From IMG/VR virus record IMGVR_UViG_3300046048_000092, positions 1-42,177 of that record: a stretch of 42,177 nt of DNA; one strand, written 5' to 3'. Both the position numbers and the translations under genes were made by a program. Within the stretch, counting starts at the first letter, position 1. Every line of letters starts with the position of its first letter. Shown here piece by piece: positions 5,832 to 31,967 of the stretch. The DNA comes from a virus. Below the pieces are notes generated by a model. That model worked only from the letters and a program-made list of their open reading frames with translations, was not told the DNA's origin and searched no databases.

Positions 5832-5833
5832 AG

Positions 5834-6673
5834 TTATTCGCCGACGCCCATTCGTTCGAGCTTCGAGTTCATCTCGAACTGCTCGCGGCCCGAGAGCTTG
5901 TCCCATTCCGCGTCACGGTCCTCCTGGCAGTCGTTCATGCAGGCAGCCAGGTAGCGCGCCTCTGTTTTCGAGAAGTAGAACGCCCCGAGACGATACTCCT
6001 CGAACGCTTCCCACGCCAGGGGTACGCACTCCTTCACGATCCCAGCGATCGCGTTCGCGTACTGCCGAATCTCCAACTGAGCGTGCGGGTCCATGCGCAG
6101 CCCAAGAAAGTGGAACAGGTTGTGCAGGTCGATCTTCCAGTATGCTTCGGTGTAGGTCGAGAGTGGTAGATCCTTGCGGGCCTGTTCACGAGCAACGCCA
6201 GCTTGCAGTCGGTCCTTGTAGAGAGCATCAGCATGACGGTGGAACTCCGCCTCGTTCGCTGACAGATTGTTTCCAACCGGGACTGGAAGCATGCTGTCGC
6301 TGCCCTGCTTGTTGACTACCGATTGCGCTCGCCATTCCCTGGGTGAAGTGCTCTGCTTGTCGTCGATCGCTTCGGAGTACCGCGTCGAGTATTCGTTCAC
6401 CGACGCGGTCCGGTGTCGGATCCATTGACGCCAGCAATCCATCGGAACTCTGACGTGGAACTTGAATTCGACCATCTCGAACGGAGTCGTGTGACGATGC
6501 CGCATCAGGTAGCGGATCAGGCCGCGATCCTCGCTGATCGACTTCGTCCCCTTGCCGTACGAGACGCGAGCGGCCTGAACGATCGAAGAGTCGTCACCCA
6601 TCACGTCGATCAGGCGAACGTGGCCCTTGTCGAGCACGCGCCTCGTGGCCTTTCTTGTGTTCTCAGTCACCAC
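5834..6673 (-). CDS. thyX: FAD-dependent thymidylate synthase ThyX
   Basis: Makes dTMP from dUMP using FAD, NADPH and methylene-tetrahydrofolate. The 279-residue protein has the diagnostic ThyX motif RHRTASVNEYSTR at residues 86-98 and the upstream RHRHTTPFEM segment (58-67). Length and order match cellular and phage ThyX. It starts at one of two tandem GTG codons overlapping the preceding gene. It is notable beside the ThyA-fold protein at 19260-20048, since phages rarely carry both folds; one is likely to serve a modified-thymine route. Confidence 0.93.
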   Translation of the reverse strand: MVTENTRKATRRVLDKGHVRLIDVMGDDSSIVQAARVSYGKGTKSISEDRGLIRYLMRHRHTTPFEMVEFKFHVRVPMDCWRQWIRHRTASVNEYSTRYSEAIDDKQSTSPREWRAQSVVNKQGSDSMLPVPVGNNLSANEAEFHRHADALYKDRLQAGVAREQARKDLPLSTYTEAYWKIDLHNLFHFLGLRMDPHAQLEIRQYANAIAGIVKECVPLAWEAFEEYRLGAFYFSKTEARYLAACMNDCQEDRDAEWDKLSGREQFEMNSKLERMGVGE

Positions 6674-8163: not shown

Positions 8164-8380
8164 AAACCCCGTCGCACCTCGCGTAACCTAGCCACGCCGT
8201 GCCTGCCTTGCCTTGCCGTGCCGCGCCCTACCTAGCCGCGCCCGACCGTGCCTCGCCTGCCATGTTATGCCATGCCGCGCCTAGCCTGACCTTCCCCGCC
8301 TTGCCGTGCCTGCCATGCCTCACCAAGCCGCACCCGGCCTCGCCGTACCAGGGCTCGCCGCGCCTCGACGCGCCTGCCTA
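8164..8380 (-). repeat. degenerate GGCNN pentanucleotide array
   Basis: The whole gap between the stop of the 162-residue gene and the ssb leader consists of about 45 tandem units, mostly 5 nt long, reading GGCNN or GGTNN on the minus strand (NN[G/A]CC on the plus strand). Five units are 4 nt (8204-8207, 8258-8261, 8297-8300, 8311-8314, 8375-8378) and shift the phase. The first two or three bases of each unit are nearly fixed and the last two vary, so it is neither a simple microsatellite nor coding. It begins at the upstream stop codon (8378-8380). Function unknown. Confidence 0.85.
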
Positions 8381-9728: not shown

Positions 9729-10928
9729 TCAGCCCTTCACACAGATGATCTGCTTGAGAGTGTGCTTCACCTTCACGAGGTCGGTCTGGTTCTCCATCAC
9801 CTCGTCGATGTCCTTGTACGCGCCTGGGATCTCGTCCAGAACGCCCTTGTCCTTCCGACACTCCACACCCTCGGTCTGTGCTACCAGATCTTCGGATGTG
9901 AACGTCTTCCTTGCCTGGGTGCGCGACATGCGGCGACCGGCTCCGTGCGAGCATGAGTCGAAGCTCTCCGGGTTGCCCAGCCCCTCGACGATGTAGCTTC
10001 GCGTGCCCATCGACCCAGGGATGATGCCCATGTCGCCAGCGCGCGCACGGATCGCTCCCTTGCGCGTCACCATCAGGTTCTCACCGTAGTGGTGCTCGCG
10101 TGCTACATAGTTGTGGTGGCAGTTGATTGCCTTCTCTGCCAGGCCACCGATAACTAGTCCAATGTCGTGGAATGCGGCATGGATTGAGTGCATCATCACT
10201 ACACGATTCACAGACGCATATTCCTGAGCCCACTGCACTGCTGCCCAGTACGCATCGAAGTGCTCCGTGCCTTCCGGCAAGTACGCCAGATCCTTGTCAG
10301 GCAGGTGGATGAAATGGCGCTCCATGTCCTGCTTCGCCAGCCCGATGAAGTGCATGCCGATCTTGTTGCCGATCCCGCGCGATCCACTGTGCAGCATGAT
10401 CCACACGTCGTCATTCTCGTCCAGACAGATCTCGATGAAGTGGTTGCCGCCACCCAACGTGCCGATCTGGTGCGCGAGCGTGACACGGTTCTTGTGCTCG
10501 CTCACAGCACGGAATGACTCATGGTCCTGCTCCAGCTTGCAGAACTCATCCACCAGGCCCTCGGCGATCGCGTCCTGTAGTGGATTCAGCTTCGCATGTC
10601 GATTGAACCCAACAGGGACGCGCGCCTCGATTGCGGAACGGAGCTTCACCAGCGGAATGTCGTCAGGACGAACATCGGTCTTGACCGCCATCATACCGCA
10701 GCCGATGTCGACACCCACGGCGGCCGGGATGATCGCGCCCTTCGTGGGCACCACCGACCCGATCGTTGCGCCCATGCCGAGATGGACATCAGGCATCGCA
10801 GCAACCCACGGGTCAACGAACGGCATGCGCGCAGTGTTGCTGAGCTGGACGATCGACGCTTCGTCCACGTCCGGTGTCCAGATCTTCACAGGCTTCATGC
10901 CCGTCTCATGTAGCACTCGACTGATCAT
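9729..10928 (-). CDS. rtcB: RtcB-type RNA ligase (RNA-splicing ligase)
   Basis: Joins RNA 2',3'-cyclic phosphate or 3'-phosphate ends to 5'-OH ends using GTP and Mn2+. All catalytic residues align with E. coli RtcB: Asp74 and Cys77 in VGVDIGCGM, His163 in GGGNHF, His180 in LHSGSRG, His271/272 in NCHHNYV, and the guanylylated His328 in SHGAGRRMSR. The 399-residue length is typical. Encoded together with more than 20 tRNAs and a second RNA ligase, it most likely repairs tRNAs cut by host anticodon nucleases. AGGAAGG precedes the ATG. Confidence 0.95.
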   Translation of the reverse strand: MISRVLHETGMKPVKIWTPDVDEASIVQLSNTARMPFVDPWVAAMPDVHLGMGATIGSVVPTKGAIIPAAVGVDIGCGMMAVKTDVRPDDIPLVKLRSAIEARVPVGFNRHAKLNPLQDAIAEGLVDEFCKLEQDHESFRAVSEHKNRVTLAHQIGTLGGGNHFIEICLDENDDVWIMLHSGSRGIGNKIGMHFIGLAKQDMERHFIHLPDKDLAYLPEGTEHFDAYWAAVQWAQEYASVNRVVMMHSIHAAFHDIGLVIGGLAEKAINCHHNYVAREHHYGENLMVTRKGAIRARAGDMGIIPGSMGTRSYIVEGLGNPESFDSCSHGAGRRMSRTQARKTFTSEDLVAQTEGVECRKDKGVLDEIPGAYKDIDEVMENQTDLVKVKHTLKQIICVKG

Positions 10929-21341: not shown

Positions 21342-21418
21342 TGGTGGCCCCGGTAGGACTTGAACCTACGACCTTCTGGTTCAGAGCCAGACGCTCTAGC
21401 CAACTGAGCTACAGGGCT
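21342..21418 (-). tRNA. tRNA-Gln(CUG)
   Basis: Full cloverleaf with encoded CCA. The anticodon loop is CTCTGAA on a TCTGG/CCAGA stem; T-loop TTCAAGT. The 1-72 pair is a mismatch (A-C), which suits tRNA-Gln, where an open first pair aids recognition by GlnRS. Confidence 0.9.
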
Positions 21419-21420
21419 AT

Positions 21421-21496
21421 TGGTTGCCTCGGCAGGATTCGAACCTGCGGCCCAGGGATTAGGAATCCCCGGCTCTGTCCACTGAGCTACGAGGCA
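21421..21496 (-). tRNA. tRNA-Arg(CCU)
   Basis: Cloverleaf with acceptor TGCCTCG/CGAGGCA, anticodon loop TTCCTAA, T-loop TTCGAAT and encoded CCA. Reads AGG codons. Confidence 0.92.
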
Positions 21497-22147: not shown

Positions 22148-22222
22148 TGGTTGACCCGGCTGGTTCCGCCCCAGCGCCTCCGGTGTTTCAAGCCGACGCT
22201 CTACTGACTGAGCTACAGGTCA
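22148..22222 (-). tRNA. tRNA-Phe(GAA) with a non-canonical T-loop
   Basis: Acceptor TGACCTG/CGGGTCA and D-arm GCTC/GAGC are normal; anticodon loop TTGAAAC with a C-A mismatch closing it. The T-stem GCTGG/CCAGC is perfect but its loop is GGCGGAA in place of the TTCRANN consensus. The same type of loop occurs in the His tRNA at 31638. Confidence 0.78.
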
Positions 22223-22226
22223 TTGT

Positions 22227-22307: not shown

Positions 22308-22382
22308 TGGCTGACTCGGCAGGACTCGAACCTGCGCGCTGCGGCTTAACAGACCGCTGCTCTGCCACTGAGCTACGAGCCA
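22308..22382 (-). tRNA. tRNA-Asn(GUU)
   Basis: Acceptor TGGCTCG/CGAGTCA, anticodon loop CTGTTAA on GCGGT/GCCGC, T-loop TTCGAGT, G73 and encoded CCA. Confidence 0.93.
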
Positions 22383-22388
22383 TCGAAC

Positions 22389-22464
22389 TGGTTGCCCCGG
22401 TAGGCATCGAACCTACAACCTTCGGGTTAAGAGCCCGCTGCTCTGCCAATTGAGCTACGGAGCA
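22389..22464 (-). tRNA. tRNA-Lys(CUU)
   Basis: Acceptor TGCTCCG/CGGGGCA, D-arm GCTC/GAGC, anticodon loop CTCTTAA, T-loop TTCGATG, A73 and encoded CCA. First gene of tRNA cluster 1 in transcription order. Confidence 0.92.
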
Positions 22465-27024: not shown

Positions 27025-27594
27025 CTACCAAGGGATGCGGAAGTCGCGCTTCTTCACCTTCGCCATGCGCCCATCGGGATGGTGCCAGACGATGCCCTCA
27101 TAGAGCTTGTCCTGCGTCAACCATTCCAAGATCTCGGCGTAGGTCCGTGGGTTGCTCATGATTGGATGGACGCCATGCTCGATCAGCATGATGCGGTCGA
27201 GCTGGTGCCGGTTCCCGTTGATCTTCGGCCCGCACAGCTCGTAGGTCTGGCTCTCCCTCATCGGCCCGGCACGACGCAGCCCGGTGCGGTGCCACTTGTC
27301 GTCCGGTCCGTCCGTGACCGGCATCCAGCCGGGATGCTTGAGCGTGTGTGGGTCCGGCATGGGTTGTGCAGGCAGCCAGTCTGCTGGGTAGTCGAGTGGA
27401 TCGAGTGGGTCATGGGCCTGGATCGTGTGCCGCTTGTACAGGCGGCCTTCCAGATAGAGGCAGGCCGTCCCATCCCACTTCGCTGTGGGTACACCCTCGC
27501 CTTCCAGCACCCATTGGCACTCCGGGTTCACGAGGCTGGTCATCGGATTCACTGGACTGCGGTTGCGCTGGAACAGTGTGGGGATCTTTCGCAT
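27025..27594 (-). CDS. ATP-dependent RNA ligase of the nucleotidyltransferase family
   Basis: A 189-residue protein. Motif I KWDGTACLYLEGR gives the adenylylated Lys39 (KxDG); motif III-IV region TYELCGPKINGN and EGIVWHH; motif V MAKVKKRDF near the C-terminus. This is the short RNA ligase 1-type fold, able to seal 3'-OH/5'-phosphate breaks. With rtcB it gives the phage two sealing chemistries. Start at 27594 with AGAGGAG upstream; a longer frame from 27627 was rejected. Confidence 0.8.
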   Translation of the reverse strand: MRKIPTLFQRNRSPVNPMTSLVNPECQWVLEGEGVPTAKWDGTACLYLEGRLYKRHTIQAHDPLDPLDYPADWLPAQPMPDPHTLKHPGWMPVTDGPDDKWHRTGLRRAGPMRESQTYELCGPKINGNRHQLDRIMLIEHGVHPIMSNPRTYAEILEWLTQDKLYEGIVWHHPDGRMAKVKKRDFRIPW

Positions 27595-27614
27595 GGTACT
27601 CCTCTGAAGTTGGT

Positions 27615-27669
27615 GTGGGCCTCTCACCCACTCGGACGTTCCCTTGATTTCCGGGTCAATTTAAGCGTC
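27615..27669 (-). promoter_or_regulatory. pair of hairpins between the ssDNA-binding-like gene and the RNA ligase
   Basis: On the minus strand an extended imperfect hairpin (27635-27669: GACG, TT and TTGA pairing with TCAA, AA and CGTC) is followed by a 5-bp stem with a 7-nt loop (27615-27631) and then ACCA. The second resembles a tRNA T-arm but no acceptor partner is found. It could be a decayed tRNA or a regulatory leader for the RNA ligase. Confidence 0.35.
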
Positions 27670-30758: not shown

Positions 30759-30835
30759 TGGTAGCGCGTGCGGGAATCGAACCCGCTGCTTCCGGCTTGA
30801 AAAACCGGCGACTCGACCGCTTCGTCCTACGCGCC
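30759..30835 (-). tRNA. tRNA-Glu(UUC)
   Basis: Acceptor GGCGCGT/ACGCGCT, anticodon loop TTTTCAA on CCGGT/GCCGG, T-loop TTCGATT, encoded CCA. Its 5' end overlaps the last codons of the upstream protein gene by 9 nt, so tRNA processing must cut that mRNA. Confidence 0.92.
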
Positions 30836-31096
30836 ATAGAGAATCTCCTTGAGCCCAGGCCAGCGCCCCCCGTTCTTGAACCGGAATCGCAGGGCCTTCA
30901 GCGTCGTGCGCTCGGGATCCCACTCCAGCCCGTCGCACGAGCAGTGTGAGGAGTTGACCTCGAAGAGCTTCCCACGCAGCCTGTAGATGGTGAGGGACCA
31001 GCCCTCGTACCACTCGGTGTCGTAGTGGTGATACACGACCTCAGCGCCCTCGTCGAGCGTGATGCCGTAGTCGTCGTTGATCTCCTGCCTCGTCAT
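30827..31096 (-). CDS. protein of unknown function embedded in tRNA cluster 2
   Basis: An 89-residue protein with GAGGAG before its ATG. It contains a VNSSHCSCDGLEW segment, a Cys/His pair that recurs in small phage proteins, and a C-terminal basic helix. Its stop lies inside the tRNA-Glu(UUC) gene, so excision of that tRNA would truncate the message. Confidence 0.62.
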   Translation of the reverse strand: MTRQEINDDYGITLDEGAEVVYHHYDTEWYEGWSLTIYRLRGKLFEVNSSHCSCDGLEWDPERTTLKALRFRFKNGGRWPGLKEILYGA

Positions 31097-31114
31097 CACA
31101 CTCTCCTCGAATGT

Positions 31115-31208: not shown

Positions 31209-31299
31209 TGGAGGAAGCGGTGGGAATCGAACCCACGGACCGTTGCCGGTCGCCTGCTTAGCAAGCAGGTACGCCTCACCCAGCGTGCGTGCCACTTCC
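31209..31299 (-). tRNA. tRNA-Ser(GCU)
   Basis: 91 nt with a long variable arm (GACCGG/CGGTC-type), acceptor GGAAGTG/CGCTTCC, anticodon loop TTGCTAA on CCTGC/GCAGG, T-loop TTCGATT and encoded CCA. The discriminator is U rather than the usual G. Confidence 0.9.
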
Positions 31300-31301
31300 G
31301 A

Positions 31302-31393
31302 ATGTCGGTGGGGTGCTCCATCCTGAGCTACACCAGGCCCGGTTGACCCAGGACGCTGGTGGCCCGGACTTGCACCGGGCGACCACCCCAATG
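31302..31393 (-). ncRNA. candidate circularly permuted tRNA, best fit tRNA-Val(GAC)
   Basis: Between two normal tRNAs the minus strand reads, in order: TGGGG (31390-31386), a 5-nt variable-like loop, a T-arm (6-bp GCCCGG/CCGGGC, loop TGCAAGT), CACCAG (31361-31356), a 19-nt linker, CTGGTG (31336-31331), TA, a D-arm (GCTC, AGGATG, GAGC), A, then CCCCA (31313-31309). As a normal tRNA this makes no sense, but joined end to end it gives a complete cloverleaf: acceptor CTGGTG/CACCAG, anticodon stem CCCCA/TGGGG. The flanking CCGACAT matches the GACAT of tRNA-Val(GAC) loops. Confidence 0.5.
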
Positions 31394-31394
31394 T

Positions 31395-31469
31395 TGGCGG
31401 CGTGTACGGGGATCGAACCCGTGTCCCCCAGTAGACAGCCGGGGATCCGTGCCGCTGGAACAACACGCC
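31395..31469 (-). tRNA. tRNA-Asp(GUC)
   Basis: Acceptor GGCGTGT/ACACGCC, anticodon loop CTGTCTA on a 6-bp stem CCCCGG/CTGGGG, T-loop TTCGATC, G73 (Asp identity) and encoded CCA. The D-stem is only about 3 bp. Confidence 0.88.
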
Positions 31470-31636: not shown

Positions 31637-31637
31637 A

Positions 31638-31711
31638 TGGTACTGGCGGACGGTTCTGCCCCGTCGTCCTCGGGTCCACAACCCGCTACTCTACTATTGA
31701 GCTACACCAGA
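31638..31711 (-). tRNA. tRNA-His(GUG) with a non-canonical T-loop
   Basis: D-arm GCTC/GAGT, anticodon loop TTGTGGA on GCGGG/CCCGA, perfect T-stem GACGG/CCGTC but loop GGCAGAA instead of TTCRANN. The acceptor pairs at six positions with a T-T mismatch at 1-72 and A73; a classical G-1:C73 pair is not seen. Encoded CCA. Confidence 0.75.
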
Positions 31712-31723
31712 ACAAGTTGGGAT

Positions 31724-31856: not shown

Positions 31857-31879
31857 TGGTGTGTCCTTCGTCGAGAGAT

Positions 31880-31949
31880 TGGAGCCGATACGAGGAGTCG
31901 AACCCCGCTCGCAGCCGTACAAAGGGTGCTTTCTCCCAGAGATACCGGC
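31880..31949 (-). tRNA. compact tRNA-Thr(UGU)
   Basis: 70 nt. Acceptor GCCGGTA/TATCGGC, D-arm TCTC/GAGA with only TGG in the loop and no base between acceptor and D-stem, anticodon loop TTTGTAC on CACCC/GGCTG (one C-C mismatch), T-arm CGGGG/CCTCG with TTCGACT, encoded CCA. First tRNA of cluster 2 in transcription order. Confidence 0.72.
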
Positions 31950-31967
31950 TCAAGATTCTGAACCAGA

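Follow-up and report, generated by a model that had tools for sequence, protein, structure and literature searches.

The tRNA array and the permuted element

The window analysed here, a 42,177-base IMG/VR virus record that represents a fragment, carries its tRNA genes in two groups, both on the minus strand, and a permuted tRNA-like element occupies the gap between tRNA-Asp(gtc) and tRNA-Ser(gct) in the second group (Table 1). No linear tRNA is detected at the element by ARAGORN or Rfam RF00005, introns allowed. ARAGORN was run with the default settings, -i, -i0,200, -ps80 and -ps80 -i, and as it calls nothing there under any of them, a linear tRNA was rejected, whether its arms were odd or an intron interrupted it. 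A permuted tmRNA was rejected on anatomy only (tag region absent, D-arm full), and matches to twister-sister (18.5 bits, gathering score 34) and to sul1 lie under their cut-offs.

Elsewhere in the window, tRNA-His(gtg) (31637-31714, minus) and tRNA-Phe(gaa) (22148-22225, minus), with the odd T-loops GGCAGAA and GGCGGAA, are detected by Rfam and missed by ARAGORN, while a degenerate tRNA-Thr(tgt) (31878-31950, minus) is called by ARAGORN only with a relaxed threshold. The array also contains a 90-aa open frame (30827-31099, minus) with weak matches to phrog_8792 and the integrase family phrog_21421.

Table 1. Positions of the permuted element, its parts in order of transcription, its flanking tRNA genes and the RNA ligase genes of the window
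Feature	Position	Strand	Remarks
tRNA-Asp(gtc), flank upstream in transcription	31395..31469	-	
Whole permuted tRNA-like element	31302..31394	-	Two extra bases (31300-31301) precede tRNA-Ser
ACAT, first copy	31391..31394	-	Doubles as spacer after CCA of tRNA-Asp
TGGGG, anticodon-stem 3' strand (tRNA positions 39-43)	31386..31390	-	
TGGTC, variable loop	31381..31385	-	
T-arm, GCCCGG-TGCAAGT-CCGGGC	31362..31380	-	Pair probability 0.98 in linear RNA
CACCAG, acceptor 3' strand	31356..31361	-	CCA absent after it
19-nt linker	31337..31355	-	Own hairpin possible
CTGGTG, acceptor 5' strand	31331..31336	-	
T8-A9 and D-arm, GCTC-AGGATG-GAGC	31315..31330	-	D-stem probability 0.09-0.12 in linear RNA
CCCCA, anticodon-stem 5' strand	31309..31313	-	
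CCGACAT, open anticodon-loop-like end	31302..31308	-	tRNA-Val(GAC)-like
tRNA-Ser(gct), flank downstream in transcription	31209..31299	-	
Second RNA ligase	27025..27627	-	Possible partner only; phrog_14301, E 1.1e-53; PF17720 RLIG1, E 4.4e-8
RtcB RNA ligase	9729..10928	-	Possible partner only; PF01139, E 2.9e-131

Anatomy of the element

In the element, the tRNA 3' half precedes the 5' half, with a single A between the D-arm and CCCCA, and the acceptor and anticodon stems are formed by pairing between the halves. All of the cloverleaf pairs (21/21) are Watson-Crick. The closing ("anticodon") stem TGGGG/CCCCA comprises 5 bp and may be extended to 7 bp (TGGGGTG/CACCCCA), and the acceptor CACCAG/CTGGTG comprises 6 bp, beyond which a further pair would be C.C. 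Only 6 nt make up the D-loop, G stands at T55, and C occupies position 33, so that U33 is missing. Whereas all 18 tRNAs called by ARAGORN in the window encode CCA, the acceptor of the element lacks it.

An earlier note on this DNA had described the order T-arm, acceptor 3' half, 19-nt linker, acceptor 5' half, TA and D-arm, which is indeed present, on the minus strand, a point left unstated there. The T8-A9, the D-arm GCTC/GAGC, the 5-nt variable loop and the pairing of the outer ends CCCCA and TGGGG as an anticodon stem were likewise recovered, and its total of 12 bp for T-stem plus acceptor holds once each is taken as 6 bp. Because ACAT is present at both ends of the element, five different joints lead to one and the same 7-nt loop. 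The motif CCRACATT lies at both element ends and after tRNA-Leu, and the element's CCG-ACATT resembles the CCA-ACATT gene ends of tRNA-Leu and tRNA-Asp.

Folding and chance controls

In the linear RNA of the element, the closing stem and the T-arm are stable, the acceptor forms with a probability of 0.45, and the D-arm is mostly unformed. With the permuted cloverleaf retained, the best fold reaches -45.6; the minimum is -46.8, a competing fold being better by 1.2 kcal/mol. The folding z-score of the element is -2.39, with 3 of 200 shuffles equally good. The linker hairpin was rejected as a sign of selection, given that 112 of 1000 shuffled linkers fold equally well. A bulge-helix-bulge is absent from the element ends, where no 4-bp flank helix with 3-nt bulges appears among the helices listed.

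A strict scanner for permuted tRNA geometry finds the element as its sole match in the window, returns 0 matches in 48.6 Mb of first-order Markov simulated sequence (one strand), and across 222 records (2.53 Mb) yields 2 matches, namely the element and a Y RNA at locus L217. Half-pairs taken from different tRNAs pair at both stems in 8 of 2,420 cases, all orthologues of one tRNA, and half-pairs with different anticodons pair equally well in 1,439 of 1,984,122. Since foreign half-pairs so rarely pair at both stems, the two halves of the element belong together. A chance origin of its arrangement is excluded.

Likeness to tRNA-Val(GAC)

The resemblance of CCGACAT to tRNA-Val(GAC), proposed in the earlier note, is borne out by a set of 1,449 tRNAs called by ARAGORN in the loci retrieved, some of which overlap; in this set, loops ending in GACAT occur only in tRNA-Val(gac), in 4 of 9. 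Of the 9 phage-locus tRNA-Val(gac), 3 share the C33 of the element. When the element is rotated, ARAGORN with default settings calls tRNA-Val(gac) in 40 of 40 variants with a 7-nt joint and in 0 of 80 with longer joints, and it also calls control hybrids of neighbouring ordinary tRNAs (50/387), for which reason the rotation result is weak evidence. The loop evidence is the more telling of the two.

Conservation and the closest relative

The comparison with related phages that the earlier note had suggested disclosed no conservation. The sole close relative found is a 57.7-kb record (L002) whose SNF2-type helicase is 97% identical; the element is absent from it, and neither the element nor tRNA-Asp has a match in its array. 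At positions 5833-5935, this relative carries a tRNA-Ser(aga) that lacks 38 nt of its interior and has the apparent 3' part of another tRNA behind it, and its tRNA array is visibly decaying. The degenerate tRNA-Thr(tgt) of the window is 98.6% identical there.

A DNA search of the tRNA cluster against phages matched only short stretches over tRNA genes. The element itself returned three 38-base matches (E 0.8), none in tRNA genes, and DNA searches returned no relatives of the rotated element and, in E. coli genomes, no relative of the element. In viral contigs, an exact 22-mer search gave no relative, one of the two loci matched by the T-arm/acceptor/D-arm pattern is an ordinary tRNA pair and the other has no tRNA calls, and a T-loop variant led to four loci, 0 of them with a permuted match. 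A single 20-mer of the element was found in genome_contigs, outside any called tRNA.

Permuted modules in Y RNAs and phage tRNA arrays

The earlier interpretation had passed over bacterial Y RNAs, which share the module order of the element and occur in phages. According to PMC11472068, bacterial Y RNAs contain a tRNA-like module that can be superposed on tRNA if a circular permutation is allowed for, as in the YrlA structure cited there (PDB 6CU1), and PMC7765460 already places YrlA in phages. Y RNA modules in phages therefore give the swapped order a phage precedent that is free of splicing. The Y RNA anatomy used here follows the Rfam model, PMC11472068 and PMC7790460, together with general background.

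The Y RNA at L217 scores 34.8 bits with RF02553, below the gathering score of 69, and is adjoined by an open frame matching Ro60/TROVE. The element aligns with RF02553 in register at positions 23-88 of 114, with 17.3 bits. However, ordinary tandem tRNA junctions of the window (21359-21466 and 22335-22441, minus) outscore it at about 34 bits, up to 34.5, and the RF02553 score was rejected as a diagnostic. Because such junctions reach these values, sub-threshold YrlA matches in tRNA arrays are no evidence. A Ro60-binding stem is absent below the module of the element, whose flanks are tRNA genes with a best flank helix of 5 bp, whereas 26 of 27 other modules have one of 6-12 bp, some of which may be chance. 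The linker measures 19 nt against 2-7 in those 27 modules, which come mostly from a search favouring short ones. No TROVE/Ro60 gene is found in the 42-kb window fragment or the 57.7-kb relative, both of which may be incomplete. In anatomy the element is Y-RNA-like, a likeness that falls short of establishing it as a Y RNA.

A pattern scan tuned to short acceptor loops, with 118 loci analysed, gave 127 sites, of which 31 with a fully paired acceptor are candidate sites of the Y RNA module type, some inside tRNA arrays; these were hand-checked in part, 2 fall within tRNAs called by ARAGORN, and there are at least two pairs of identical sequence. Pfam TROVE is present in 15 of the 31 records, and phmmer adds L291. 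An upstream TACTTC motif accompanies 8 of 27 modules.

Among tRNA-array gaps of 55-200 nt, 4 of 221 hold permuted modules, a count that includes the window; the opposite strand gave 0 and shuffles gave 0.0. The three outside the window (L290, L304 and L337) were all obtained in the scan biased to such sites, which covered 145 gaps; in the tandem-tRNA scan, 71 gaps held 0 modules. At L290, whose 61.6-kb record has no TROVE, the module at 8270-8344 is immediately flanked by tRNA-Arg and tRNA-Tyr; L337, with a TACTTC motif upstream of its module, lies in a 40.7-kb record without TROVE.

Several further arrangements were observed in these loci. L290 (IMGVR_UViG_3300046616_000205), with 30 ARAGORN tRNAs in the locus, carries a second permuted module at 6158-6240, whose lower helix is GTATGAGC/GCTCATGC. 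The module at L304:640-780 (IMGVR_UViG_3300049141_000098, 259.6 kb, TROVE present) lies between tRNA-Gln and tRNA-Asn, has an acceptor closed by TTCG and a different D-arm type, and seems to be directly preceded by a second such arrangement. In a Ro60-bearing phage, L310:12386 (minus) is a second permuted module with a terminator-like hairpin after it, and its rotated form would have the canonical loop CTGACAT and a 7-bp acceptor. L345:11330-11500 (plus) shows a nested double tRNA-like structure in the order D-arm, T-arm, acceptor hairpin, D-arm, T-arm, the outer acceptor strands pairing across the whole.

Competing readings of the element

The element fits a working permuted tRNA gene less well than it fits either a tRNA mimic that stays unspliced, of the bacterial Y RNA type, or the remnant of a tRNA that was rearranged. 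The earlier interpretation is supported in part: what the note had called a permuted tRNA gene keeps its order, its pairing, its tRNA origin and its Val(GAC)-like loop; its status as a working gene is not supported, with CCA, bulge-helix-bulge, conservation and a dominant cloverleaf all missing.

The element is best, if tentatively, read as an orphan, circularly permuted tRNA-like RNA that acts unspliced and corresponds to a Y RNA-like module without the Ro60-binding stem. What is directly observed is the order of the parts, the presence of four helices, arms derived from tRNA, and the element's place within the array. For the swapped order, bacterial Y RNA provides a known precedent without splicing (PMC11472068), the L217 Y RNA is the only other strict match, and modules of the same order lie among the 31 acceptor-paired sites and in the three other array gaps. 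Every stem pair is intact, and the folding z-score points the same way. The missing CCA would be expected for such a mimic, because its acceptor arm is closed. Weighing against it are the lack of a Ro60 stem and of TROVE, the long linker, the better competing fold with its low acceptor and D-arm probabilities, the lack of conservation, and the empty gaps of the tandem-tRNA scan.

Cleavage of the tRNA polycistron directly behind the 3' end of tRNA-Asp and directly ahead of the 5' end of tRNA-Ser would free an RNA of about 90 nt, and no new enzyme would be needed. On folding, the freed RNA would bring both of its ends to the anticodon position, while the linker would close its acceptor arm, and it would thus present D- and T-arm surfaces with neither an intact anticodon loop nor a free acceptor end. 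Purely by analogy, its likeliest use for the phage, which also has two RNA ligases, may be that of a decoy for tRNA-acting enzymes, for instance anticodon nucleases of the host; a decoy role against an anticodon nuclease has been proposed for YrlA by its students (PMC7790460).

Only slightly less likely is that the element is what rearrangement has left of a tRNA-Val(GAC) gene, without function, an origin for which the decaying relative speaks and which the earlier interpretation likewise did not consider. A tandem copy could have lost its outer halves, or an excised copy could have re-entered the array, through recombination at a short homology shared by the spacer that follows CCA (CCAACATT) and the gene's own anticodon loop (CCGACATT). 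Such recombination would place both break points in the anticodon loop, with no selection needed. The recurrence of CCRACATT, the confinement of GACAT loop ends to tRNA-Val(gac), the internally deleted tRNA-Ser(aga) of the relative and the unmatched tRNA-Asp and element there are consistent with this origin, and decay is suggested by the short D-loop, T55G and the absence of CCA. However, all 21 stem pairs are Watson-Crick despite the loss of CCA, two or three separate events would be needed, and no other permuted remnant was recognised in the scanned loci, where the permuted modules appear Y-RNA-like on partial checks.

It is unlikely that the element is a functional circularly permuted tRNA-Val(GAC) closed by the phage RNA ligase or RtcB. 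The earlier note had pointed to RtcB as an enzyme that could join the ends; its gene is present in the window, together with that of a second RNA ligase. No splicing endonuclease is known from bacteria. The tRNA-processing enzymes leave 5'-phosphate and 3'-hydroxyl ends. Phage ATP-grasp ligases generally need ends of this kind (PMC7824862). Processing of the neighbours would free the ends 5'-ACATTGGGG and ...CCCCACCGACATTC-3'; the ACCG end would mimic ACCA, so that trimming stops there, and closure of CCG to ACAT, across the junction CCCCACCG-ACATTGGGG, would form the 7-nt loop CCGACAT with a GAC anticodon. After ligation, the acceptor would be opened by RNase P and 3' processing, for which the 19-nt linker gives space, and CCA would be added.

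Any of the five equivalent joints provides the GAC loop, and the ARAGORN rotation calls, shared with the control hybrids, the C33 of some phage tRNA-Val(gac) and the two encoded ligases also agree with this route. Against it stand the absent CCA, although later addition is possible, as PMC3978253 reports for algal permuted tRNAs; the acceptor of only 6 pairs and the lack of a bulge-helix-bulge; the 6-nt D-loop, the G at T55 and the missing U33; the mostly unformed D-arm; and the lack of conservation. In the literature linking permuted tRNA with phage or bacteria, titles and the beginnings of abstracts report no permuted tRNA gene there.

A true YrlA-type Y RNA, with its Ro60 encoded outside the fragment, is very improbable: the module order and the register with RF02553 agree, the record is a fragment, and RtcB, Ro60 and Y RNA form common operons in some bacteria (PMC7790460), but the RF02553 score is exceeded by ordinary tandem tRNAs of the same window, and both the Ro60 stem and TROVE are missing.

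Implications for phage tRNA arrays

The element and L290 suggest that phage tRNA arrays carry permuted modules without a Ro60 stem that are missed by tRNA finders. Functional modules of this kind would take part in the contest over tRNA cleavage, either as tRNA decoys or as tRNAs that depend on a ligase; if the modules are remnants, short homology between the CCA spacer and the anticodon loop could create a permuted tRNA gene. Should the functional permuted reading be true, the element would be the first phage circularly permuted tRNA gene, matured without a splicing endonuclease, and the finished tRNA-Val would depend on phage RNA-repair enzymes.

Comparison with known systems

With tRNA-Val(GAC), the element shares the loop end GACAT, the TAGCTC D-arm, a similar variable loop and, in part of these tRNAs, C33; it differs in its swapped halves, 6-nt D-loop, T-loop TGCAAGT and absent CCA. 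Permuted tRNA genes have been reported from algae and one archaeon, Thermofilum pendens (PMC3978253), and these resemble the element in the order of 3' half, intervening sequence and 5' half, in their tRNA arms, and in a joint that could lie in the anticodon loop. Unlike them, the element has no bulge-helix-bulge and a weak D-arm, and its joining is only hypothetical.

YrlA (RF02553) has the same order of T-arm, acceptor-like stem and D-arm, its ends pair at the anticodon position, and it is linear, unspliced and without CCA; the element departs from it in lacking a Ro60 stem and a detected Ro60 gene, in its 19-nt rather than short acceptor loop, and in its site between two tRNA genes. The modules at L290:8270-8344, L304 and L337 have short acceptor loops of 4-5 nt, and L304 and L337 further differ from the element by TROVE in the record and the TACTTC motif of Y RNA-like modules, respectively; like the element, all three fill a same-strand gap between tRNA genes with a permuted module.
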